A DNA stretch of 35,139 bases from a virus. Below the pieces are notes generated by a model, which saw only the letters and a program-made list of their open reading frames with translations, did not search any database and was not told the origin of the DNA. Shown piece after piece: positions 1,049 through 32,210 of the stretch (within the stretch, counting starts at the first letter, position 1; every line of letters starts with the position of its first letter). A program made the position numbers and the translations under genes. The DNA lies in the IMG/VR virus record IMGVR_UViG_3300023118_000022, positions 1 to 35,139 of that record. One strand, written 5' to 3'.

Positions 1049-2044
1049 TTGAGTTGGCCTAAGCCTAAGATACTCATCCAAGAGATTGCGACCAACAAAA
1101 AGTATGGTCGAGCCTTCGAGCCTCAGTTCAAAGACAAGGCCGTGGCTAAGCTCAAGGAACTGAACGTTGAAGTTGTCAAGTATCGCTTGGGACGAGCCCC
1201 TTACCCAGACTGGCAGTACTACACAGAGGATACTTACGCCAGAAAGACTTATTGCGATCCCATTGACCCTCCCTCCATCCCAGCGTTCACCTATCCCGAT
1301 CAGCATCGCAATAAGTGGCGAAGGTTCTGCCCTCACACCACCACTGAGACCAAGCCCGGCCTCATGGATTACTTCAAGACCACCGAAGATCGCATGGTCT
1401 TCAAGGTCACCTCTACCCTCTACGGAAGGTTCCTAACTGAACACTTCTCTGATGTTCTAACAGCCGAGCAGATACGTGACCTCGGTACGGAGTTTAACGC
1501 TATGAATGATCCTAACGACCTGCTATGGGCGAACACACCCGAAGAAATTCAGTGGGTGTTCGAGCGTGGTACCTTCGCCTCCTGTGCCTCTTCTAAGCAG
1601 GACCCTGTTCATCAGGCTCAGGTCTATGCTCAGGGTGACATCTCCATTGCTTATCTTCTTGACAAGCTGAACCCCGAGCGTGTCATTGCTCGTGCTATCT
1701 GCTGGCCCGAGAAGAAGTTAATTGCTGGTGTATACGGTGACACCATCCGTATGAAGACCAAGCTCGCTGCTCTCGGCTACACACACATCAAAGACCGTTC
1801 CGAGATGGATGGTGCGAAGCTCAAGAAGATCGTTTACAATGGGTACTACATTGGTGCCCATATCGATTACTTCCCTGACTTTGTAGATAAGGGAGAGTAT
1901 CTCGAAGCTCTCGCCGGTTCCGGTCAGGGCTTTTATCTGTACCGTTCTAAGCCTAAAACTGGTAAGGCTATTCCTCCCGGTGGTCTCTGGGTTGATGAAG
2001 CTGGTAACGAAATCGATAATGGTCTCACAGAGAAGGCAGCCTGA
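1049..2044 (+). CDS. unknown protein heading the amidoligase operon
   Basis: A 331-aa protein beginning with TTG at 1049, with a gaggggtgaag ribosome-binding region just upstream. The N-terminal 100 residues are rich in Pro, Tyr and Trp. A middle block contains TFASCASSKQDPVHQAQVYA at about residues 175-194. This is followed by ISIAYLLDKL and then VIARAICWP...VYGDTIRM...LAALGYTHI, which reads as an alpha/beta or beta-rich core. The SCASS cysteine with a nearby histidine could be a catalytic pair, but that is inference. I do not recognise the family with confidence. Only two bases separate its stop from the next gene's first ATG, so it is probably co-expressed with the amidoligase and may supply or recognise its substrate. 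Confidence 0.75.
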   Translation: MSWPKPKILIQEIATNKKYGRAFEPQFKDKAVAKLKELNVEVVKYRLGRAPYPDWQYYTEDTYARKTYCDPIDPPSIPAFTYPDQHRNKWRRFCPHTTTETKPGLMDYFKTTEDRMVFKVTSTLYGRFLTEHFSDVLTAEQIRDLGTEFNAMNDPNDLLWANTPEEIQWVFERGTFASCASSKQDPVHQAQVYAQGDISIAYLLDKLNPERVIARAICWPEKKLIAGVYGDTIRMKTKLAALGYTHIKDRSEMDGAKLKKIVYNGYYIGAHIDYFPDFVDKGEYLEALAGSGQGFYLYRSKPKTGKAIPPGGLWVDEAGNEIDNGLTEKAA

Positions 2045-2073
2045 ATATGGGTATGATTAAGCAGGAAGTTGCG

Positions 2074-2871
2074 ATGAATGATCGTCGCTATATCAAGCAC
2101 ACCAATCCCGACGCCATCTTCGAAATCCCTCTGGGGTACGAATATGAGCTGCAGAATGGTCCCGGTCGACTAGCAGCAGGGCATGCATGGGGAGCTGGTA
2201 CTGGTGCCGAATACTTTGGCACTCAGGCTGACTTCGAAAAGTGGAAGCCCAAGGTCCTCGAAGGCTTCAACGTCAGTCGAGACAGCCTCGACTGGGGTAT
2301 CAACAAGATCGGCTGGGAGATTCGTTCCCTTGTTGCTCCTCTCCGTATGCAGCGTGTCCTCTGGGACAAGATATACGCAGAGAACCTTGCCAATGGTCTT
2401 GACCTTGAGCAGGTAGACCTTGAGCACATGGGAGCAGGTATCCACGTTCATGTGGAGAACAATGCGAAGACTGTCGAGAATGCTCACAAGGTCATCAACT
2501 TCCTGCATGGTGGCCCCCGAGATAAGTTCCTCAAGCTCTCGGAGCGTACCAAATATAGCCTTGACAAGTATGCTCGTGCTGATGTACGACCCAATGTCAC
2601 TGCTGAGACTGTGAAGAATCGCCAGCGAACCGAGCAGACCAACTATCTCACAGGTCATTACGAAATCATCACCATGGAATCTCCCAAGACTTTCGAGATT
2701 CGATGGTTTGCTGCTCGTCCTCACCTCATGCCGGTAGCTCTCGAAGCTGCTGATTCTCTCTTCCGCATGGGTCGAGACGTAGACGCAATCACCATGGAGA
2801 ACTGGTCGGCCTACACCGCTGGCAAGGCTCGTTACGCCAAGCTCCACGCTGCTATTCAGGCTGCCGCATGA
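2074..2871 (+). CDS. amidoligase (COOH-NH2 ligase, glutamine-synthetase-like fold)
   Basis: The frame opens at ATG 2047, but ATG 2074 has a good Shine-Dalgarno (gcaggaag, 2061-2068) six bases upstream and is the likelier start, giving 265 aa. Residues are numbered from 2047. The family's hallmarks appear in order: GYEYELQ (E32, E34), GWEIRS (E91), GIHVHVE (H133, H135, E137) and TFEIRWFAA (E217, R219). These are the metal/ATP-binding acids and the His-x-His of the amidoligase family related to glutamine synthetase, which joins a carboxylate to an amine using ATP. The C-terminal 35 residues are helical. The stop overlaps the ATP-grasp start (ATGA, 2868-2871). The substrate is unknown. The neighbouring ligases, amidotransferase and cyclotransferase-like gene suggest a glutamyl or peptide product. 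Confidence 0.88.
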   Translation: MNDRRYIKHTNPDAIFEIPLGYEYELQNGPGRLAAGHAWGAGTGAEYFGTQADFEKWKPKVLEGFNVSRDSLDWGINKIGWEIRSLVAPLRMQRVLWDKIYAENLANGLDLEQVDLEHMGAGIHVHVENNAKTVENAHKVINFLHGGPRDKFLKLSERTKYSLDKYARADVRPNVTAETVKNRQRTEQTNYLTGHYEIITMESPKTFEIRWFAARPHLMPVALEAADSLFRMGRDVDAITMENWSAYTAGKARYAKLHAAIQAAA

Positions 2872-3335
2872 CAATTCGTAACATCGTACGTCCAGCCTCC
2901 ATCTACACCACACCAAAACTACTGCAGGAAACACTGAATGCGAAGCGAGTACGAAAGTGGCCTCAGGCGAATATTCTACGTAGGGAGTCTTATGATTTCG
3001 ATCGTGATCTATTCCTTATCTATCCTGACCCTGCTGTAGTTCAGGTAGAGAACAAGGAAAAGTACCGTGACCTCTACCGATTCTTTTCCGCCAGTAAACC
3101 TGTACAGCGTGGCCTACTGGAACAGTTCGGCGTCTCAACGGTTCCTTTCATTACTCGAAGAGACGCAGCAGACGAACTACTCACCAAGCGATACACCAAA
3201 GAAAACACCTTCATCGTTAGACCAATGCGTCATAGCGGTGGACGTGACTACAAAGTCACCATTGACCCTCGGGATTTCGAAGAGGGTAAGGAATACCGTC
3301 AGTGTTGTTCCCCAAACGTAGGGAATACAGGGTAA
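2868..3335 (+). CDS. ATP-grasp ligase, N-terminal part (zero frame)
   Basis: A 155-codon frame from ATG 2868, coupled to the amidoligase by an ATGA overlap. It encodes the preATP-grasp part and the first ATP-binding strand: VQRGLLEQFGVSTVPFITR (about residues 79-97), then TFIVRPMRHSGGRDYKV (114-130), the strand and glycine-rich loop that hold ATP. The usual lysine of that strand is replaced by arginine. The frame stops at 3335, but the rest of the fold continues in the -1 frame (3302-3661). The slippery heptamer at 3311-3317 would join N150 directly to RREYRV, giving a continuous ligase of about 264 aa. Without a shift it makes a short protein lacking the catalytic acids. The alternative is an indel in a decaying gene or a sequence error. 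Confidence 0.8.
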   Translation: MTIRNIVRPASIYTTPKLLQETLNAKRVRKWPQANILRRESYDFDRDLFLIYPDPAVVQVENKEKYRDLYRFFSASKPVQRGLLEQFGVSTVPFITRRDAADELLTKRYTKENTFIVRPMRHSGGRDYKVTIDPRDFEEGKEYRQCCSPNVGNTG

Positions 3336-3661
3336 TCTACTTCAAAGGTGTACCAATCATTACCCTTCGGAAGCGTGTCCCCGAAGGTCTAGACAATACC
3401 GCACCATGGAATCATGCCAATGGGTCAGTCTTCGTGACTGTAGAGCATGAACTGAATAATCACCTACTCAATACTACAGTGATGGCTGATCTCGCCAAGT
3501 GTCCTATCATCATGAATGCCCACCTTATTGGTGTTGACATTCTCTTGGACAAGAAGGATCAGCACTACGCTGTCCTAGAGATCAATGCATGCCCTGCTCT
3601 AACTATCGAGCACAATCTTGAGAAGGTGAAAGCAATTGTACAAGGTCTATCAGCGGCCTAA
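3302..3661 (+). CDS. ATP-grasp ligase, C-terminal part (-1 frame, probably made by frameshifting)
   Basis: This frame completes the ATP-grasp enzyme begun at 2868. From base 3317 it reads RREYRVIYFKGVPI and RKRVPEGL. It then gives APWNHANGSVFV, LIGVDILLDK and finally VLEINACPALTIEHN, the metal-binding acid and asparagine motif (vlEiN..P) that closes the family's active site. It cannot work alone because the ATP-binding strand is in the other half. A GTG at 3302 exists but has no convincing Shine-Dalgarno and would start in the middle of the fold. Expression by -1 frameshifting from the upstream frame is therefore the better reading. ATP-grasp ligases activate a carboxylate as acyl phosphate and couple it to an amine. 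The end overlaps the second amidoligase by 26 bases. Confidence 0.8.
   Translation: MLFPKRREYRVIYFKGVPIITLRKRVPEGLDNTAPWNHANGSVFVTVEHELNNHLLNTTVMADLAKCPIIMNAHLIGVDILLDKKDQHYAVLEINACPALTIEHNLEKVKAIVQGLSAA
3311..3387 (+). promoter_or_regulatory. candidate programmed -1 frameshift site (slippery heptamer plus hairpins)
   Basis: Bases 3311-3317 read CCCAAAC, phased in the upstream frame as C CCA AAC, which fits the X XXY YYZ rule for simultaneous -1 slippage. An 8-bp perfect stem starts 11 bases later: AGGGTAAT (3329-3336) pairs with ATTACCCT (3359-3366) across a 22-base loop. A second perfect 7-bp hairpin, CCTTCGG (3364-3370) with CCGAAGG (3381-3387), overlaps it by three bases, so the two compete. 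The spacer is a little longer than the typical 5-9 bases. The shift joins the two ATP-grasp halves exactly. Confidence 0.6.
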
Positions 3662-5696
3662 TGTCAAGGCCAACATAGTCGACTTCGACTACCCTGAGGA
3701 TTTCTTCAATGTCAAGAAGAATCTCCTCTGGGGTAACGGTAAATATACCATCAGTGGCTTCTTCAATCAGATCAAACTGATGATGACTAAGGAAGCTATC
3801 CTCCACGCTAAAGATATCTACGGTGCTAGCTTCAACTGGCCTGTTGCTACCAGTCTCACTAAGACTGTAGAACTCTTCCCTGCGGATAAGCTCTGGACTT
3901 TGTTGTTCATTGGCATCGAAGATACTCACGTTTACCATCGTAAACATGTTGCTAGCGAAGGTAGGCAGGGATGGGCTATCGGCCATCACGACAACATCGA
4001 TCTCAATCCACGATGGACTAGTGCTGAACGTGGTAAAGAAGGTGTAGCCAGTATTGCCACTCTCCTTAAGGCTTCTGCTATGGTGGAAGCTGAATGGAAT
4101 GAGATGGAAAGACTGTACGGGGACAAGTTTCTCTACAATGTGAATCTTGGTCCGACTATGTTCAACCACGTTCTTTCATATCTTCCGATCTATGCAGATG
4201 ATCGTGAGATGATGTATCTGGCAAGCCCTGATGGACGTGCCGATCAAAAAGTCAAGCCAAGCGTAATCTACGCTACTGAAAATCTTAAGTTTGACACTCG
4301 TCGTAACAAGTGGGGCCACTACATCGGCACCATCACGGTAAGTTACGCTACTCGTGCTACTTTGTACAAGCAGATGCAGTACAGTGCGAATGTCCTGCAG
4401 TATCTTGAGCCTAAGAAACTCGATGAAGAGCCTGATAACGTACTTAAGTACGGTGTCGAGCTTGAACTGTCTACCAATTACTCAGTGAAGCAGTTGATTG
4501 ATGCCTGCGATGATCCTTTTTTCATCGTCAAGGCTGACAGCTCTGTCCGAGGCAATAAGCGGTATCCCTACGAACTGGTCACTCCCCCTATGAGTGCTCT
4601 TTCTCAGAAGGTGTACTGGGCTCAGTGGCTTGATGCTCTAGACTATGGTGAATTCGATACCACTCTCGATACCACCAATGGTATGCACGTCCATATCGGC
4701 AGTGACTCATTCAAGAACAAGTCTCATCGTGAGCGTTTCATCTACTTCTACACTCGTCCTCAGAACACTGAGTTCTTCCTTCGTTTCTCTGCTCGTGATC
4801 TGCAGAGTTTCAAGCGTTATTGTCCGGTGCCCAACATCCCTCTGGGCTACACCGAGCAGAATGTTATGGAGAATCTCGATGTGATCCTTGAAAACATGCC
4901 CCGTGATGATCGTGGTAATCATCTCCGAGGTATCGTAGGTGCTTCCAAGAAGGGTGGTACTATCGAGGTTCGTCTCTTCCGTGGTGTCGTTTCCATGGCA
5001 GACATCGCTAAGAATCTGGAAATGGTTGAAGCTTCCTTCCTCTATGCGAAGGATACTCCGAACATGAAGGACATGACACTCAAGGGCTTCCTTAACTTCG
5101 TCTTCGGACAGCCCGATGACACTTGGGAAATCCTCAAGGAGTACCTCAACACTCTTGATCTGGAATACGCTACTAGCTACGCCGAAGTATTCGATATCGT
5201 CTTTGCCGAGACTCGTCCTGACGTTATCAGTGAGTTGATTCGCAATGCCCCGAACTTCCAGATCAATGATTCCCATATCACCTGTCTCAACATACACTTC
5301 GGTAGGCAGGTTTTTGGGTACAAGAATGGTCAGGTTCGAGTAAAGGCTCTCAATACTTCTAGCAGTGCTGTTGCTCGATTCGATGGTATCGTTTCGGCTA
5401 AGTACAACAAGAAGCGTCCCCTCAAGAACATAAGGGGGAAGCAGGCTGCACCAGACCCTTTCGTGGATGAGGCTGCTGTACCCCCGCATCCTTGGGGGCA
5501 GAGGGCGTATAACTATAATTTCCAAGAAGTTATGAACCGTGGTGATGGACATATAGCACCTGCAGCACCTCCACAAGCACCAAGACGTGGTAACTACCCC
5601 GGTGGTAGAACCTACAATGAATACTTAGAATTTGTCCGTATGCAAGAGGCAGCAATGCGTCTTGGTATTATTGACGACATAGAAATCGAGCGATAA
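3636..5696 (+). CDS. large two-part amidoligase (COOH-NH2 ligase)
   Basis: A 686-aa protein from TTG 3636 (gagaaggtgaaa upstream), overlapping the ATP-grasp gene by 26 bases. The C-terminal domain, about residues 265-490, is an amidoligase: LKYGVELELS (E275, E277), YPYELVTPPMS (E313), GMHVHIGSDS (H351, H353) and GTIEVRLFRG (E444, R446, R449). These are the same metal, ATP and substrate positions as in the smaller amidoligase at 2074. About 260 unrecognised residues precede it, including a His-rich stretch (GWAIGHHDN). They may select the substrate or provide a second activity. The tail (about 590-686) is Pro/Gln/Arg-rich and probably disordered. Two amidoligases in one operon suggest two different condensations on one product. 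Confidence 0.85.
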   Translation: MYKVYQRPNVKANIVDFDYPEDFFNVKKNLLWGNGKYTISGFFNQIKLMMTKEAILHAKDIYGASFNWPVATSLTKTVELFPADKLWTLLFIGIEDTHVYHRKHVASEGRQGWAIGHHDNIDLNPRWTSAERGKEGVASIATLLKASAMVEAEWNEMERLYGDKFLYNVNLGPTMFNHVLSYLPIYADDREMMYLASPDGRADQKVKPSVIYATENLKFDTRRNKWGHYIGTITVSYATRATLYKQMQYSANVLQYLEPKKLDEEPDNVLKYGVELELSTNYSVKQLIDACDDPFFIVKADSSVRGNKRYPYELVTPPMSALSQKVYWAQWLDALDYGEFDTTLDTTNGMHVHIGSDSFKNKSHRERFIYFYTRPQNTEFFLRFSARDLQSFKRYCPVPNIPLGYTEQNVMENLDVILENMPRDDRGNHLRGIVGASKKGGTIEVRLFRGVVSMADIAKNLEMVEASFLYAKDTPNMKDMTLKGFLNFVFGQPDDTWEILKEYLNTLDLEYATSYAEVFDIVFAETRPDVISELIRNAPNFQINDSHITCLNIHFGRQVFGYKNGQVRVKALNTSSSAVARFDGIVSAKYNKKRPLKNIRGKQAAPDPFVDEAAVPPHPWGQRAYNYNFQEVMNRGDGHIAPAAPPQAPRRGNYPGGRTYNEYLEFVRMQEAAMRLGIIDDIEIER

Positions 5697-5713
5697 AAGA
5701 AAGGTAACTGACA

Positions 5714-6895
5714 ATGTGTCAGATTTTTCAAGTAAACCCTGGCGTTGTAGTTCCCTTTGACAAGTTTAAGCTTGCTTGTGAGCACAACGGTGATGGTTAC
5801 GGATTCATTATCAATGACCGTAACAAGTTCGAAGTCCGTAAGGAATTCGATCCTAATGGTAACGATCCCGACAAAATCTACAAGCTCCTAGAGGATGCAA
5901 GAGATTGTCAGACAGCACTCCACCTTCGCTTCCGTACTGCTGGTAACAAGGACGTAGACAATAACCATCCTTATCAGGTCCTCAAAAAGGACGAGGATGG
6001 TATTGATCTCTGGTTCATGCACAATGGTACACTGCAGGAATGGAAGGACGTAAACAAGGACTACTCAGACAGCCGTAATCTGAATGATGTGGTCCTCAAG
6101 GGTATGTTCAAGGCAGCCTACGCCAAGTATGGTGAAGACTATCTTGAGGAGCTGTGGCTTCGTCATTCCCTCCGTGCTCTCAAGAACCAGACCAGTGCAT
6201 TCACTTTCAATGATTCCCTGGGTAAGCGACTGATCCTTGGCTCAACTCATTCGAAGGAATTCGATGGATGGTGGGCTTCGAACGAATACTCCTTTCGCGA
6301 AAATTTCACCCGTTACCAGAGTACTCAACAGGGTCAGAGTGTCCAGAGTTTTACGCAGGGCGGAAAGGAAACTCAGCTCCCGGCAAAGACGTCGAATGGC
6401 CAAGTGACTCCGAACTACCGTTCGACTACGACGAATGGGAGTACTTCTGGAAACAGGGGTATCACAGCGCCAGCCTCCACTAGTGGTGAAAAGAATACCT
6501 ACGATACGCTAGTCAATGGTCGTACGTGGGACTATCAAGCCGAAGTTCTCAAAACGCGAGTTATCATGAGCACCGCAGTACAGCTCGAAGCTGCCTATCT
6601 CCGTGACGTCCTCAAGGACATGGTCAACGACACTGGCAGTAGCCCTCACTTTAAGTTGTCTCCGAACAACGCTCTCCTGCCTACCTTCGCTGATCTATCT
6701 GACATTGCTGACCATCGTGAGCTGGCCAAGATGTCCCTGAGTGATCTCTCGGCTCTCCTTGAGAATGCCCCCGAAGCTGGTGCTATCCTCGTCATGGAGC
6801 TGATCAACAAGGCGTACTTCAACAATAGTGCTTACAACGCAAACAATCGTGGCACTGCCCTTATGATCAAGGCTCCGATGAAGGACGTTGCCTGA
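5714..6895 (+). CDS. class II glutamine amidotransferase with extra C-terminal domain
   Basis: A 393-aa protein with a good ribosome-binding site (aaagaaaggt). Residue 2 is cysteine (MCQIF), the N-terminal nucleophile of class II (Ntn) amidotransferases after removal of Met. Other signatures are GDGYGF (about 27-31), ALHLRFRTAG (H70, R72, R74), FMHNGTL (N104, G105: oxyanion and glutamine site) and YSDSRNLND (D119, replacing the usual SETDT). The enzyme releases ammonia from glutamine, or hydrolyses a gamma-glutamyl bond. Unlike GlmS or PurF it has no known synthase domain. A low-complexity Ser/Thr/Gln/Gly linker (about 200-260) leads to about 130 residues of unknown, helix-rich sequence. Its stop overlaps the next start (ATGA). 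Confidence 0.88.
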   Translation: MCQIFQVNPGVVVPFDKFKLACEHNGDGYGFIINDRNKFEVRKEFDPNGNDPDKIYKLLEDARDCQTALHLRFRTAGNKDVDNNHPYQVLKKDEDGIDLWFMHNGTLQEWKDVNKDYSDSRNLNDVVLKGMFKAAYAKYGEDYLEELWLRHSLRALKNQTSAFTFNDSLGKRLILGSTHSKEFDGWWASNEYSFRENFTRYQSTQQGQSVQSFTQGGKETQLPAKTSNGQVTPNYRSTTTNGSTSGNRGITAPASTSGEKNTYDTLVNGRTWDYQAEVLKTRVIMSTAVQLEAAYLRDVLKDMVNDTGSSPHFKLSPNNALLPTFADLSDIADHRELAKMSLSDLSALLENAPEAGAILVMELINKAYFNNSAYNANNRGTALMIKAPMKDVA

Positions 6896-7593
6896 TGACT
6901 CAGAATACCATGAAGGGATTGATTCAGTTCGAGACTGGACTAGTCGATCCCGCTAAGGCTGAGGACTTCGCTGATGCAGTAGGAAACTTCCTTGAAGAAG
7001 GAGAAGAGACCCCTGACATGCGCACTCTAAATGAAAAGGCAGCGCATCTCATCTTCGTCTACGACAGCATGAAGGAGAGTTTCAAGTACAACAACACCTA
7101 CATGATCGGCAATGGTGCTGAGTTGTTGTTCACTGGTTTCACTCAGGAACCTGAATGGACCATGGACCTTGTTCATGGCAAGTACCCACTGGCTTTCCGA
7201 AAGACCTTTGATAACAAGGAACCTCCTGCTCGTATCAAGGGTGAGGTGTGGGTTGTACCAACCAAGGCTATCGTTGACATGGACTACTACAATGGTGATG
7301 GTATCATCCGTAATACAGTTAGTATTTCCACCGAAGCCCCTGTTGAGGGTGTTCCTAACCGGAAGAAGCGTCTCATCACTGTCCCTGCCATGATGTATTC
7401 TGGTATCTGGAATAAGTGGCGAGAAGATCGAGCCAATGGGCAGCTTGTCCCCACTAAGCTCTTCCGTAAGAACGTCCCTGAGAATCTCTACTACTATCAG
7501 TGGACAAAGGACATGGAAGCTGATGTAACCAAGCGTCAGCTAGCCTTCAATGCAGCAATGCGTGAACGTGCCCAGAAGAACAAAGCAGCATAA
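6895..7593 (+). CDS. gamma-glutamylcyclotransferase-like (GGCT/AIG2 fold) protein
   Basis: A 232-aa protein from ATG 6895, overlapping the amidotransferase stop. Residues 51-145 follow the GGCT-fold pattern: LIFVYDSMKES (like FVYGTLK), AELLFTGFT, GKYPLAFR, IKGEVWVVPTKAIVDMD (like v.GelYevd...LD) and then IIRNTVSIST. A 50-residue acidic N-terminal extension precedes it. GGCT enzymes release 5-oxoproline from gamma-glutamyl amines, and relatives accompany amidoligases in bacterial operons. By eye, the catalytic glutamate of the LDxxE motif is asparagine here (MDYYNG, N133), so it may bind rather than cleave. It is the last gene of the amide-bond operon. Confidence 0.65.
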   Translation: MTQNTMKGLIQFETGLVDPAKAEDFADAVGNFLEEGEETPDMRTLNEKAAHLIFVYDSMKESFKYNNTYMIGNGAELLFTGFTQEPEWTMDLVHGKYPLAFRKTFDNKEPPARIKGEVWVVPTKAIVDMDYYNGDGIIRNTVSISTEAPVEGVPNRKKRLITVPAMMYSGIWNKWREDRANGQLVPTKLFRKNVPENLYYYQWTKDMEADVTKRQLAFNAAMRERAQKNKAA

Positions 7594-7608: not shown

Positions 7609-7794
7609 ATGGCACATCGATGTGCAATCTGCGACTACACTGCTGATGAAGACGTATCGAACGCTACCTTCCGAGGGAAGCGTACACGAAGCGTTCGTTG
7701 GCAGCCTAAGTACAACGAGTACCAGTGTGATGACTGTGCTAAGTCAATTAAGATCACAGTCACCAATTATTTCATTGACAAACCCAAGTTCTGA
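7609..7794 (+). CDS. small zinc-ribbon protein
   Basis: A 61-aa protein with ATG at 7609 and an aaggaata ribosome-binding site. CAIC (residues 5-8) and CDDC (about 40-43) form a CxxC...CxxC pair typical of a treble-clef or zinc-ribbon fold. A basic stretch (FRGKRTRSVRW) between them could contact nucleic acid. It sits between the amide-bond operon and the replication genes. The target is unknown. Confidence 0.7.
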   Translation: MAHRCAICDYTADEDVSNATFRGKRTRSVRWQPKYNEYQCDDCAKSIKITVTNYFIDKPKF

Positions 7795-8187: not shown

Positions 8188-9720
8188 TTGAAATACGTTG
8201 ATTTCCATGTTCCCTGTCCGTGTGGTAAATCATCCGATGGTTACGTAACCTACACGGATGGGGATGGTAAATGTTTTGCCTGTGATAAATATTTCAAAGG
8301 AGCTATTGCCATAGATAATGAGTCCTGTACTTTTCAATTTGTCGATAGTCGTGGTGTTTCTAAAGAAACTATGCAGTTCTACGGTGTTTCCACTAAGGTA
8401 GGACCTAATGGACAGCCACTTGAACTAGCTTATCCGTACCCTAATGGCCTAAAGATTAGAAATCTAGTGAAGAAAGGCTTCCACGCTACCGGAGACCTCT
8501 CGACACCGGGCCTATTTGGCAAGGATAAGTTCAATGCAGGATCAGCTAGAGCTATAACCATCTTTGAAGGAGAGCATGATGCTCTTAGTGGTTATCAAAT
8601 CCTCCGGTACCCATGTACATCAGTTAGGTCCTCTGCCACTGCGGTCGCTGATCTCACTGCTGACTACGATTATGTTAATTCTTTCGAAAAGATTTATCTC
8701 TGCTTCGATAATGATACTGCAGGGAAAAAGGCCCTCGAAGCCGTACTCAAGCAAGGACTTTTTGAGCCGAGTAAAGTCTATATCGTCAAAATCACCAAAA
8801 ACGGCTACAAGGACTGCAACGATTTCCTCCAACGAGGAGAAGCTGATGAGTTCAAAAAGATTTGGTGGAATAGTCGACGAGCAAGCGCTGCAGAAGGCAT
8901 CCTCAGTTCTTTCGAAGAGTTTGAAAGCCTCCTAGATGACGAGGTTAAAAAACCTTCCATCCCGTTTCCGTTCAAAACTCTTAACGACATGTCATACGGC
9001 ATACGGACTGGTGAGTGTATACTCTTCACAGCGCTCGAAGGCGTGGGGAAGACTGAAGTACTTCGAGCAATCGAGTATTCTATCCTCAAAAATACCAATG
9101 AAAAGATTGCAATCATCCACCTTGAAGAGTCGAAACCCCGCCTACTTAAGGGTCTTGCCTCCTATGAACTTCACAAACCAGCTCATCTAGACTCTTCTGG
9201 TGTGTCTGAGGAACAGATTAAGTCCACTCTAAGAGAGTTGATCAAGGAAGATGGACGACTATTTATCTATGACTATTTTGGGTCCAATGATCCAGACGAA
9301 ATGCTCCGAACCATACGATACATCGTTAGTCAAGGAGTCAAATACGTTTTCCTCGACCACATTTCCATCGTCGTATCTGGAAATTCGGAGGAAGATGAGC
9401 GAAAAACTCTTGACTACCTCTCCACACAGCTCGCAATGCTTGCAGAATCACTTGACTTCGCTCTCATCTTCGTCTCCCACGTTAACGATGACGGAAAAAC
9501 TCGAGGCAGTAGAAATATATCAAAAGTTGCACACCTTCGAATCGATCTGCACCGAGACCTCGAAGCTGAGTCCGAAGACGAACGCAACAAGACCAAACTG
9601 GTCGTTACCAAGAACCGCTTTGGCTCAACTACTGGCCCGGCTGGGGTCCTAGTCTTCGACCCTAAGACTTTTGAGATCAAAGAGCACAAGGTAAGTAATA
9701 TACCTAAGCTTCCGACTTAA
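8188..9720 (+). CDS. T7 gp4-type DNA primase-helicase
   Basis: A 510-aa protein from TTG 8188. The zinc-binding primase end has C10, C12, C29 and C32; the first pair is CPC where T7 has CxxC. The TOPRIM fold follows with TIFEGEHDALSG (E127, D131) and CFDNDTAGK (D174, D176). The RecA-like helicase begins near residue 255: a Walker A-like ALEGVGKTE (282-290, first glycine replaced by alanine), Walker B YVFLDHISI, and FVSHVNDDGKTRGS in the DNA-binding loop region, ending in KLVVTKNRFGSTTG. It unwinds DNA ahead of the phage polymerase and makes lagging-strand primers. It is shorter than T7 gp4 (566 aa) but has all domains. The polymerase is encoded 1.2 kb downstream. Confidence 0.93.
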   Translation: MKYVDFHVPCPCGKSSDGYVTYTDGDGKCFACDKYFKGAIAIDNESCTFQFVDSRGVSKETMQFYGVSTKVGPNGQPLELAYPYPNGLKIRNLVKKGFHATGDLSTPGLFGKDKFNAGSARAITIFEGEHDALSGYQILRYPCTSVRSSATAVADLTADYDYVNSFEKIYLCFDNDTAGKKALEAVLKQGLFEPSKVYIVKITKNGYKDCNDFLQRGEADEFKKIWWNSRRASAAEGILSSFEEFESLLDDEVKKPSIPFPFKTLNDMSYGIRTGECILFTALEGVGKTEVLRAIEYSILKNTNEKIAIIHLEESKPRLLKGLASYELHKPAHLDSSGVSEEQIKSTLRELIKEDGRLFIYDYFGSNDPDEMLRTIRYIVSQGVKYVFLDHISIVVSGNSEEDERKTLDYLSTQLAMLAESLDFALIFVSHVNDDGKTRGSRNISKVAHLRIDLHRDLEAESEDERNKTKLVVTKNRFGSTTGPAGVLVFDPKTFEIKEHKVSNIPKLPT

Positions 9721-9752: not shown

Positions 9753-10412
9753 TTGGAGGCTGTACTGCCTGATTTTACTTGGGAAGACCTAGACTGGTGG
9801 CACACAGCCCAAAGGGAAGAGACAGAAACATATGCTCTCACCCAAAAAGCGTTGCCTCATGAACAACGATGGTACCGTGCCTTCGATCTCACTCCTTTCA
9901 AGGATGTCAAGTGTGTCATCCTTGGTCAGGACCCCTACCACACACCTGGAGTAGCTAATGGCTTGGCTTTTAGTACTAACCCCGATGTTGTTCTTCTTCC
10001 TCCTTCTTTACGCAATATCTTCAAGGAGTACAGTAGCGATCTCGGCTTTCGTACTCCTCGCAGCGGTGATCTTACTGCTTGGGCCGAGCGTGGCTGTCTA
10101 CTCCTTAACACAGCTCTTACAGTAGAGCCGCATAAACCAGCTAGTCACAAAGACATCGGCTGGGACGTGCTGATCAAGGAGGTACTCACTAAGCTCAATG
10201 AAGAGACGAAGCACTCGGTCTTCATCCTCTGGGGTAGACATGCTCAGGAATACCACCCTCTCATCCATGCGAAACGGCATCTCGTTATCCGATCTGCTCA
10301 CCCCTCTCCTTTCAGCGCACGACAGGGGTTTTTTGGCTCTAGGCCATTCACTAGGACTAACACTTACCTTGCTGCCCACGGGAGAGGTGAAATTGATTGG
10401 CGTCTCAGTTAA
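9753..10412 (+). CDS. ung: uracil-DNA glycosylase (family 1)
   Basis: The protein is 219 aa if it starts at TTG 9753. The water-activating motif GQDPYHTPG (D60, H63) and the uracil-DNA intercalation motif HPSPFSARQGFFGSRPF are intact, as are LLLNTALTV and FILWGRHAQ, so it should be active. It removes uracil from DNA, which matters in a phage that makes dUTP through dCTP deaminase. The start is uncertain: the only strong Shine-Dalgarno (GGAGG, 9755-9759) lies inside the TTG-started frame, five bases before an in-frame CTG at 9765. That could be the true start (215 aa). No ATG or GTG is available before the conserved region. Confidence 0.93.
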   Translation: MEAVLPDFTWEDLDWWHTAQREETETYALTQKALPHEQRWYRAFDLTPFKDVKCVILGQDPYHTPGVANGLAFSTNPDVVLLPPSLRNIFKEYSSDLGFRTPRSGDLTAWAERGCLLLNTALTVEPHKPASHKDIGWDVLIKEVLTKLNEETKHSVFILWGRHAQEYHPLIHAKRHLVIRSAHPSPFSARQGFFGSRPFTRTNTYLAAHGRGEIDWRLS

Positions 10413-29560: not shown

Positions 29561-30016
29561 TCATATTTCCTTTAAGAATGCTTTTTCAGTCATGGTGTAC
29601 CCCATTCGGGTATAGAACTTATCGACACTACCCTCTGAGGTAGACAGAGATACAAATTGAATGAAAGAAGCTCCTACCTTTTGAGACCAATACTCAGCAG
29701 CTTTAAAGAGATCAAGAGACATTCTAGATGTCCTATAGTCTGGCTCTACCCACCAAGCAATCTCTGTTGAGACTAGGTGGTCTGTGAACCCCAATGGGGA
29801 TAGAGACATAGCTACCATCCCCTTAGGAATATCTTGGTTATCACAACTAAGGATCACTATGTTCTTAGATGTATCTTCTATAAGCTTTAAGTAATTATCC
29901 TTAATCATGGTTATGTTCCTAGGCATATCCTTATAAGGAGATTGTCCTAGGAACTTGTCTACCATGTTAGTAACTAAGTCTATATCTTTATATAGAGCGA
30001 GTCTTAGGTTTGTCAA
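29561..30016 (-). CDS. GNAT-family N-acetyltransferase-like protein
   Basis: The likely start is TTG at 30016-30014, eight bases after AAGGA, giving 151 aa. A longer frame to 30103 would overlap the nozzle gene. The layout is GNAT-like: LRLALYKDIDLVTNMVDKFL at the start, NIVILSCDNQDIPKGMVAMS, then STEIAWWVEPDYRTSRMSLD and LFKAAEYWSQKVGASFIQFV. It closes with VDKFYTRMGYTMTEKAFLKE. The YRTSRMSLDL segment stands where the acetyl-CoA loop R/QxxGxG/A would be but lacks its glycines. Phage proteins like this lie among tail genes and may acetylate a virion or host protein. The function is unproven. Confidence 0.8.
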   Translation of the reverse strand: MTNLRLALYKDIDLVTNMVDKFLGQSPYKDMPRNITMIKDNYLKLIEDTSKNIVILSCDNQDIPKGMVAMSLSPLGFTDHLVSTEIAWWVEPDYRTSRMSLDLFKAAEYWSQKVGASFIQFVSLSTSEGSVDKFYTRMGYTMTEKAFLKEI

Positions 30017-30029
30017 GAGGTAGGTGTCC

Positions 30030-32210
30030 TTATGGTGCTTGATTGCCTGTTTCGAAATTAGAGAACCCAATGATAACGAAGGGTTCGTTCTCCACAGAGT
30101 CAATCCTAAGCTGTAGCGCTAGGCCGTGGCCTCTGATCTTCACTCGATTAGAGGAGGTACCATAGGAAAGGTCCTTAGAGTAAACCCTCTGAATCGAACT
30201 CCACCTGCCTGTATCAGCATTAACACTGAAATCCCATCGACCTTGAATATCGAACTGAGACCTACGTATGTTCTCAGAGAAACACCTAAGGTAGGTAGGC
30301 TGCCATTTCCTCATAGCCTCTCCGTGGACTTTAAATCCAAGAGAGAAGAAGGAAGGATAAGTAGTAGGTTGGAAGCTTCTCCAATCCACAAAGTTAATAT
30401 CCCTAACTTCTGCAAAAGAGAAGTGGTCAAAGCCAATGATCGGGTACGAGATAAGATACTTAAACACTGGACTTAGTGCGGAAGGTTCTGTACCTTCTAC
30501 CGTTACTGAGTCCGCGGAGTTATTGGTAACGATCTCTCCACCGATGGTTGTAACATTATCCAACGAATAAACAGACGTCTGTCCATCAACCACAACAATA
30601 CCATTTACGGTAACACCGCCTACGAGAGAGATATCCCACGGATAGAAAGCGCCAGAGGTGGTATTAAAGACAAGTACCTTATCGAACTCGTATCGTTCCT
30701 CAACAGTTAAAGGTTCAGTGCTACGGTACAACCATTGTACTGTCTTAGTCTGGTTGTTGTAAGCACCCTTGGAGTAAACTTTACTATTGATCGGGATAAC
30801 GTCCAAGAACTTCTTGATCTTCTTCTCAGTGATATTCTGAATAGACATAGAACCAAGCTGATCAGTAGACGCTATGGTGTACAAACCATCTTGATTCCAC
30901 CAGATTGGGGTGCCCTCAACATCAACAAAGTTGTAAGCACTCAAGGTCTGATTGGAGGAAATCTTACGGACAGAGTAGTCGTTAGCTTTGAAACCTAGAC
31001 CTTCTGAACCGTTGATAGCCCAGATACCATTAACAGCCCATACCACCAGAGTGTTCCCAATAGGGATCATTTTAACGATACGACCAGCCTCTGCAATAGA
31101 GATCACCCCACCATCACTGGGGAGTAGGTCACTATTGTCTTCACTGGTAGGATCGTTCTGCTGGTAGCATCGGCCAAACTGTTCGTTGGTCTCAATGATC
31201 TGGGAGAAATAAATCTTCCCAACATATTTCGGCTGGGTTAGACCACTGTAGAATACTCTACCGGCATAGAAGGTATTAGTGCTAAGTCTTTGAGTCCCAG
31301 TAGATTGTACAGGAATGCCGGGGATACCAGATTGAAGAGACCTGTCCTGAACGTGTACAGGGAGGATGTAATGGCCCTTAGGTGCCGGTGTATTACCAAT
31401 AGAGAGGGTATCCACCAAAGCATTTCGAAAGAAAGAAGGGTTAGCCTGTAAGGCATTATCAGGGTCTAGAACGTAGGGTCCTCGGTAGAACCACCACACA
31501 TCAGAATTGGAAGGGTAGTCCCCTCGTGCAAATGCACCATCCCAACGCCACAAGTTGATTGTGTTGTCGTACCCACCATAGTAGCCCTTAGCAGACTGCC
31601 ACCATCCTTGGTTAAAGAGGTTGTACCAATGGAAGGTAGAGAGAGTGGTAGGACGACCAGAGATGGGGATACCATCATTCAAGCCTTCGAAGTCTCGAAT
31701 TTCCTGATAGATGGGATTAAGACTAAATGTATCCGTATCCTGAGAGTAGGAAATGTATGCAGAGTTTAGGGAGGGATGGGTAACAAACAGGTACCCTAGA
31801 CCAGACGAGAAAGAGATTTCAGTCTGAGCCGCATCCACAGACCCAACAACTAGGTAGGGGCTCAGATCAATGACGTCACTACGTACACCAGTAGAAAGGG
31901 AGACAGCACCAGTGACTTCATAGAGACGAAGGACTAGGCCCACTTGGACAACATTGAAACTCTTGGTCCCAGTGTTGCCAACATTCTTCCAAAGGAACTG
32001 GTTAATACTCCTGTTGGTCTTATCCGTATACGTAAAAAGGAAGTCTTCTTCTAGATCGAAGCCTTCCCTACGTTCTACCTTGCCGATGGGGTCAAAGACA
32101 CAGTTCACAGTCTCAGTACAAGCGTTCTCTGGGTAGTTAAGACCAGTAGCTTCTGTAATAAGCCCGCCTGTTAGATTATTGTCTACTACGATTCCAGCAG
32201 AACGAGCCAT
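30030..32210 (-). CDS. tail nozzle protein (tail tubular protein B, T7 gp12-like)
   Basis: A 726-aa beta-rich protein from ATG 32210 with aagg upstream. The N-terminus (NNLTGGLITEATGLNYPENA, then CVFDPIGKVERREGF) is the hallmark of podovirus nozzle proteins, where the chain runs past a Pro/Asn-rich start to 'G.v.RR.GF'. The body has repeated strands, Trp/Tyr-rich loops (HWYNLFNQGWWQSAKGYYGG) and a middle propeller-like portion (IPIGNTLVVWAVNGIWAING). It forms the distal tail tube that closes the channel and carries the fibres. The position two genes from the adaptor fits the family. Confidence 0.83.
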   Translation of the reverse strand: MARSAGIVVDNNLTGGLITEATGLNYPENACTETVNCVFDPIGKVERREGFDLEEDFLFTYTDKTNRSINQFLWKNVGNTGTKSFNVVQVGLVLRLYEVTGAVSLSTGVRSDVIDLSPYLVVGSVDAAQTEISFSSGLGYLFVTHPSLNSAYISYSQDTDTFSLNPIYQEIRDFEGLNDGIPISGRPTTLSTFHWYNLFNQGWWQSAKGYYGGYDNTINLWRWDGAFARGDYPSNSDVWWFYRGPYVLDPDNALQANPSFFRNALVDTLSIGNTPAPKGHYILPVHVQDRSLQSGIPGIPVQSTGTQRLSTNTFYAGRVFYSGLTQPKYVGKIYFSQIIETNEQFGRCYQQNDPTSEDNSDLLPSDGGVISIAEAGRIVKMIPIGNTLVVWAVNGIWAINGSEGLGFKANDYSVRKISSNQTLSAYNFVDVEGTPIWWNQDGLYTIASTDQLGSMSIQNITEKKIKKFLDVIPINSKVYSKGAYNNQTKTVQWLYRSTEPLTVEERYEFDKVLVFNTTSGAFYPWDISLVGGVTVNGIVVVDGQTSVYSLDNVTTIGGEIVTNNSADSVTVEGTEPSALSPVFKYLISYPIIGFDHFSFAEVRDINFVDWRSFQPTTYPSFFSLGFKVHGEAMRKWQPTYLRCFSENIRRSQFDIQGRWDFSVNADTGRWSSIQRVYSKDLSYGTSSNRVKIRGHGLALQLRIDSVENEPFVIIGFSNFETGNQAP

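Follow-up and report, generated by a model that had tools for sequence, protein, structure and literature searches.

An amidoligase cassette upstream of a phage primase gene has a core co-inherited in related phages and carries an additional gene pair

A "peptidoglycan modification cassette" has been published for the podoviruses PSA-HP1, RIO-1, phiEco32, 7-11, PA11, tf, LUZ24, PaP3, and CW02 (PMC5498523). The accompanying hypothesis is that the cassette alters the peptides of peptidoglycan and thereby prevents superinfection (PMC5498523; PMC10580990; UFV-P2, PMC3890496). For related operons in the network of Iyer et al. (2009), as cited in PMC10580990, metabolite synthesis was proposed. The same kinds of enzymes are encoded by LUZ24 (gp16-gp22), phiEco32 (gp77-gp86), RIO-1 (gp8-gp14), CW02 (gp2-gp16), Sinorhizobium phage phiM6 (gp70-gp79), Rhizobium phage RHph_N3_19, and MEP402, and these cassettes mostly lie directly 5' of the primase gene. 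Hosts are mostly Gram-negative, with mycobacteriophage Marvin in addition (PMC10580990). The cassette recurs in phages of very different bacteria, and the hypothesis has stood for more than 15 years, apparently with no test of the substrate; our literature search found neither a substrate demonstration nor an experimental test for any cassette member.

The locus described here lies in IMG/VR record IMGVR_UViG_3300023118_000022, and "the window" denotes the whole stretch analyzed, 35,139 bases. A first, sequence-only reading had called the substrate undescribed as far as it could tell. The view that the gene set itself is undescribed in phages is not supported: the same cassette and the same superinfection hypothesis appear in PMC5498523 and PMC10580990. 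The window has in common with the podovirus cassette an Amidoligase_2 protein, an ATP-grasp ligase, a class II amidotransferase, and a GGCT protein, clustered near the primase gene in the early region (Table 1). It differs in lacking a PF14395 COOH-NH2 ligase (likewise unlisted for MEP402 and ctgrD200) and a homolog of LUZ24 gp17, and in having a second Amidoligase_2-like gene, an extra gene for a 331-aa protein, a ~240-aa N-terminal extension on the large amidoligase, and a longer GGCT-like protein without the catalytic Glu. Phages phiM6 and RHph_N3_19 resemble the window in having amidotransferase, GGCT, and then primase genes, with amidoligase and ATP-grasp genes upstream, and the window amidotransferase matches that of RHph_N3_19 with E 2.5e-24 in a 60-sequence search; unlike the window, they have the amidoligase before the ATP-grasp gene, two amidotransferases, and a C26 peptidase. 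This is almost certainly a divergent podovirus amidoligase cassette belonging to the Iyer et al. (2009) network, to which a second amidoligase and a GNAT-like candidate have been added in this lineage; the virus is probably a distant relative of Zobellviridae/Cobavirinae. The kind of cassette is known; what is new here is the extra gene pair (331-aa protein and small amidoligase) and two possibly impaired genes.

Table 1. Genes of the cassette and its downstream flank in the window.
Feature	Position	Strand	Remarks
331-aa protein, short member of a phage family; possible divergent GNAT-like transferase	1049..2044	+	TTG start; conserved SC, YGD, R, GA
Small amidoligase, GS-like, 274 aa	2047..2871	+	GxExE, HVH, ExR motifs; profile match to large amidoligase
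ATP-grasp ligase, RimK/TTL-like, split (ORFs 2868-3335 and 3302-3661)	2868..3661	+	EYRV and D/E/N metal site kept
Large amidoligase, 686 aa, TTG start	3636..5696	+	PF12224 20.0 bits; invariant catalytic motifs
Class II glutamine amidotransferase, 393 aa, N-terminal Cys2	5714..6895	+	GATase_6 E 5e-5
GGCT/AIG2-like protein, 232 aa, without canonical catalytic Glu	6895..7593	+	PF06094 E 6e-4
61-aa zinc-ribbon protein between cassette and primase, conserved there in some relatives	7609..7794	+	Homologs in L076, L153
DNA primase/helicase, marking the downstream side here and in most known cassettes	8188..9720	+	phrog_239 E 3e-121

An ORF check recovered the seven plus-strand frames of the sequence-only reading, overlapping or nearly abutting, with spacings of 2, -4, -26, 17, and -1 bases along the cassette genes. 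Sigma-70-like promoter matches were no more frequent than in shuffled sequence, and terminator-like matches were just slightly commoner. Early genes occupy the plus strand and late genes the minus strand. The DNA polymerase is nearest to those of the Roseobacter phages CRP-5 (about 42%; Veravirus) and CRP-4 (about 41%), both Zobellviridae, Cobavirinae; the cassette is absent from these two phages, in contrast to RIO-1 and CW02, also Zobellviridae, which have versions of it.

In a Pfam profile search none of the cassette proteins reached a curated cut-off (Amidoligase_2, 20.0 vs. 22 bits; GATase_6, 23.8 vs. 27; GGACT, 20.7 vs. 22.8; the ATP-grasp part scored 18 bits), so the family assignments rest on motifs and relatives. 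Relatives score higher: the L062 contig yields 36 bits for the amidotransferase (cut-off 23) and 43.6 bits for the GGCT protein (cut-off 22.8), and relatives such as phiM6 pass the gathering cut-off of Amidoligase_2 (PF12224). The block of amide-bond enzymes is nevertheless real: its frames and positions are confirmed, and so are the named families, mostly through relatives.

Both amidoligases contain the GxExE, HxH, and ExR motifs of the GS-like fold, as had been seen from the sequence (GYEYE, HVH, and TFEIR in the small protein; GVELE, HVH, and TIEVR in the large one). The Amidoligase_2 domain of the large protein spans residues from about 270 to 470 and is preceded by the uncharacterized N-terminal region. 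All seven large amidoligases, the window's included, match Amidoligase_2 individually, and their catalytic motifs are invariant among relatives. The TTG start is supported by relatives that begin at the homologous residue (M-Y-K/R) and, in L062 and L155, with an identical 26-base overlap with the ATP-grasp gene. For the small amidoligase, which has no Pfam match, the assignment comes from profile matches to the large amidoligases of the window (E 4e-5) and of L157 (E 1.4e-8). Its identification as a COOH-NH2 ligase was considered and rejected, as it matches Amidoligase_2 proteins instead; the Pfam search gave no PF14395 match anywhere in the cassette. The PF14395 ligase is a variable rather than a defining part of the cassette, and an Amidoligase_2-like gene stands in its place here. 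In a comparison with named phages, the small amidoligase matched best to gp06 of the Methylophilales phage MEP402 (L069; 1616-3262, 548 aa), a protein annotated as hypothetical that is encoded before the amidotransferase and is itself Amidoligase_2-like. Neither amidoligase had DNA-level or tblastn relatives in 50,697 phage records; narrow peptide-pattern scans with the large amidoligase, amidotransferase, and small amidoligase returned nothing new, or L062 alone; and bacterial genomes scanned with the large-amidoligase alignment gave distant Amidoligase_2 relatives alone, mostly in Clostridia.

The ATP-grasp ligase had been read as one intact gene with an EIN motif. The family and the motif (LEINACPA) stand, but the gene is divided between two frames. 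Its C-terminal half retains the metal-binding D/E/N residues (VDILL...LEINACPA). Aligned with five relatives whose frame is unbroken, as well as with phiM6, CW02, and RIO-1, it proves to lack one base at about 3297-3299; the gene is in one piece in L062, L076, L153, L155, and L157. A lost base would explain the frame change better than programmed frameshifting, and since it is a single base in a metagenome contig, it could be a sequencing or assembly error. Programmed -1 frameshifting was rejected: the conserved F-P-K is already in the second frame before the candidate heptamer, no change of frame occurs in the relatives, and slippage would be predicted to yield a product with the motif disrupted. 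That heptamer, C CCA AAC, lies in frame at 3311-3317 inside the overlap of the two frames and was judged coincidental.

Cys2 and HNG, the amidotransferase residues pointed out from the sequence, are present together with R72 and D119, and Cys2, R72, HNG103-105, and D119 are invariant in seven relatives. A Glu residue is catalytic in GGCT enzymes. The window's GGCT-like protein belongs to the family by homology (PF06094, 20.7 bits; 43.6 for L062), but in the alignment it has Asn at the Glu position and YDS for the YGT/YGS cradle motif. The Glu is also missing from the GGCT-like proteins of L155, L093, L084, L080, L077, L079, and L160. Given the altered residues, and contigs in which the GGCT-like gene occurs alone, canonical cyclotransferase activity is doubtful in the window, and the solitary retention of the gene suggests a separate role. 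Glu-less GGCT-like proteins are encoded directly before the primase (window:6895-7593; L077, L079, L080, L084, L093), including in contigs that have no other cassette genes. With the ATP-grasp frame change, this leaves two enzymes that had been counted as intact in doubt.

Related contigs were collected through their primase or amidotransferase genes and then mapped. The core genes follow one another as ATP-grasp, large amidoligase, amidotransferase, GGCT-like, primase, on the same strand and with near-identical junctions, in L062, L076, L153, L155, and L157; L092 shares the order, its ATP-grasp gene being more divergent. This sharing of order, strand, and junctions exceeds chance. None of these six has the 331-aa gene or the small amidoligase of the window, and the pair is absent from ten related contigs (some of them fragments). 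Of the 26 contigs that extend 7 kb or more beyond the primase on its upstream side, seven had the ATP-grasp, amidoligase, and amidotransferase genes all together and none had two of the three; 13 others have none of the four genes, five have the GGCT-like gene only, and one has the ATP-grasp gene only. The strong association has a Fisher p of 1e-5, a value uncorrected for kinship among contigs that share ancestry. Scattered genes without co-inheritance, a case that the sequence-only reading had named against itself, did not arise. Its view that the phage has an operon for forming and editing amides is supported, and related phages inherit these genes together. In L078, L085, L094, and L095, a LUZ24/CW02-type cassette with a COOH-NH2 ligase and a C26 peptidase occupies the same place. 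The cassette is real, conserved, and co-inherited, and its identity is secure in a way that its substrate is not. By showing that ATP-grasp, amidoligase, and amidotransferase are inherited as a set, which enzymes are optional, and which may be inactive, the relatives narrow the set from which the product might be found.

The 331-aa protein has relatives in 55 IMG/VR loci and in Rhizobium phage Pasto and Bradyrhizobium phage BDU-MI-1. Most other members are about 450-600 aa long with a Cys-rich C-terminal part; those of Pasto and BDU-MI-1 (about 480-520 aa, also with the Cys-rich part) have a core homologous to the window protein at 28-31% identity and are followed by an M28-type peptidase, in contrast to the amidoligase of the window. 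A large gene lies immediately 3' in 48 of 57 family loci, and 47 of these 48 have M28-type motifs (30 by a strict pattern, the remainder by inspection); 11 of 12 following genes tested matched the Peptidase_M28 profile. The two-gene unit of a long family protein and an M28-type peptidase within tens of bases is widespread in phages (L007-L061, e.g., L020:8719-11060), and weak matches liken the C-terminal part of the long proteins to LIM-like zinc repeats. Homology of the 331-aa protein to LUZ24 gp14/gp15 or phiEco32 gp87/gp88 was considered, and none was found.

PDB folds were searched with AlphaFold models of two family members, the window protein (pLDDT 74.5, core above 90) and that of L020 (pLDDT 90.7). 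Both lists are dominated by GNAT folds, yet no match passes E 0.001 (best E 3e-3). The top weak matches of the L020 model are malonyl-CoA decarboxylase (E 3e-3), FemX, MprF, and ATE1, with RimI also matched. FemX, MprF, and ATE1 all have the GNAT fold and use aminoacyl-tRNA to make amide or ester bonds, and FemX acts on peptidoglycan precursors; the Fem, MprF, and ATE1 types are independent of acyl-CoA. The sequence profile of the 331-aa protein had no GNAT match in PDB, and the protein has no Q/RxxGxG/A cofactor loop of GNATs, with a conserved YGDxxR at the corresponding strand-helix junction. As the fold matches are weak and sequence profiles do not confirm them, the GNAT reading stays a lead. 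A tentative reading, held with considerable doubt, is that the family forms a novel phage lineage among the amide-forming transferases with a GNAT fold, perhaps dependent on aminoacyl-tRNA (FemX/MprF-like), paired with M28 elsewhere and recruited here into the cassette with a second amidoligase. If so, a single phage pathway would bring together three unrelated folds that form amides. The M28 pairing and the Fem/MprF/ATE1-like fold hints turn an unknown gene into a testable enzyme candidate.

From gene content, gene order, catalytic motifs, and co-inheritance, all directly observed, we infer a possible substrate, location, timing, and benefit. Early-expressed cytoplasmic enzymes would make and edit amides on a peptide carrier containing glutamate or a diamino acid, most likely a precursor of the cell envelope, for example the UDP-MurNAc/lipid II stem peptide. 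The glutamine amidotransferase would free ammonia, and the amidoligases and ATP-grasp ligase would join ammonia, amines, or amino acids to side-chain carboxylates; the GGCT-like protein would bind or remove gamma-glutamyl-amine products, and an aminoacyl or acyl group may be attached by the 331-aa protein. With its envelope altered, the infected cell would be less accessible to a second phage, or the timing of lysis would be adjusted. An envelope precursor, built on and edited in the cytoplasm to protect the infected cell, is our best single guess at the target, at somewhat short of an even chance, with a soluble metabolite next and a protein target after that. The conserved catalytic residues of both amidoligases and the amidotransferase, the co-inheritance, and the primase-adjacent genes of known phages argue for it, as do the published superinfection hypothesis and the weak FemX/MprF/ATE1 fold matches. 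The Gram-negative and mycobacterial hosts of the cassette phages share meso-diaminopimelate peptidoglycan. Glutathione is missing from mycobacteria, which speaks against it as the target. Against the envelope precursor, cytoplasmic enzymes could reach only newly made precursors, a small pool late in infection; the broken ATP-grasp gene and Glu-less GGCT-like protein suggest that the window's copy may be partly decayed; the GGCT-like gene stands alone in some relatives, as if it had a role of its own; and the 331-aa protein has neither a fold match at E 0.001 nor a GNAT match by profile.

The product might instead be a small soluble peptide or glutamyl metabolite, such as a nitrogen store, a signal, or a defense-blocking molecule. 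Metabolite pathways typically combine ATP-grasp and GS-like ligases with GAT-II and GGCT, neither a signal peptide nor a membrane protein was noticed among the cassette products, an M28-type peptidase gene follows the relatives of the 331-aa gene, and metabolite synthesis is the proposal attributed to Iyer et al. (2009) for related operons; we nevertheless consider it distinctly less probable than an envelope precursor, as no transporter or carrier gene is linked and the hosts differ in thiols and metabolism, arguing for a widely shared target. Modification of a host or virion protein by RimK-like glutamylation or amidation, e.g., of ribosomal protein S6 or another host factor, appears unlikely: the ATP-grasp part does match RimK/TTL and the PHROG "ribosomal protein S6 glutaminyl transferase", and the 331-aa-family model also matches the protein modifiers RimI and ATE1, but two or three ligases with an amidotransferase exceed the needs of a single protein tag, and the cassette encodes no conserved substrate protein.

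Decay or partial loss of function of the window's cassette would be compatible with any of these targets. The one-base change in the ATP-grasp gene, the Glu-to-Asn replacement, and relatives with the GGCT-like gene alone or without the cassette are consistent with it; no damage is seen in the remaining catalytic residues, in the gene overlaps, or at the start sites, and one base can be lost from a metagenome contig in sequencing or assembly, making decay improbable to a similar degree as a protein target. Hypermodification of phage DNA bases through amide chemistry is very improbable. Modifications by amino-acid-like groups are known in phage DNA generally, giving precedent, and the cassette sits among replication genes, but no base-priming gene was noticed, the thymidylate synthase is an ordinary ThyX, and a uracil-DNA glycosylase is encoded. 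An envelope precursor remains the reading we prefer.

The sequence-only reading had called the virus lytic, which is unproven. The window is a fragment with tail, spanin, and lysozyme-like genes, and no capsid, portal, or terminase gene was recognized in its 35,139 bases. An integrase gene lies just upstream of the cassette in L157 (2453-3433), and an integrase-like C-terminal remnant lies at the same place in L062 (5119-5316), so these relatives may be temperate. The uracil-DNA glycosylase gene of the window (9753-10412) follows the primase gene, as in several related contigs. A GNAT-like acetyltransferase is encoded among the tail genes (29561-30103, minus strand) and is annotated likewise in CRP-5.
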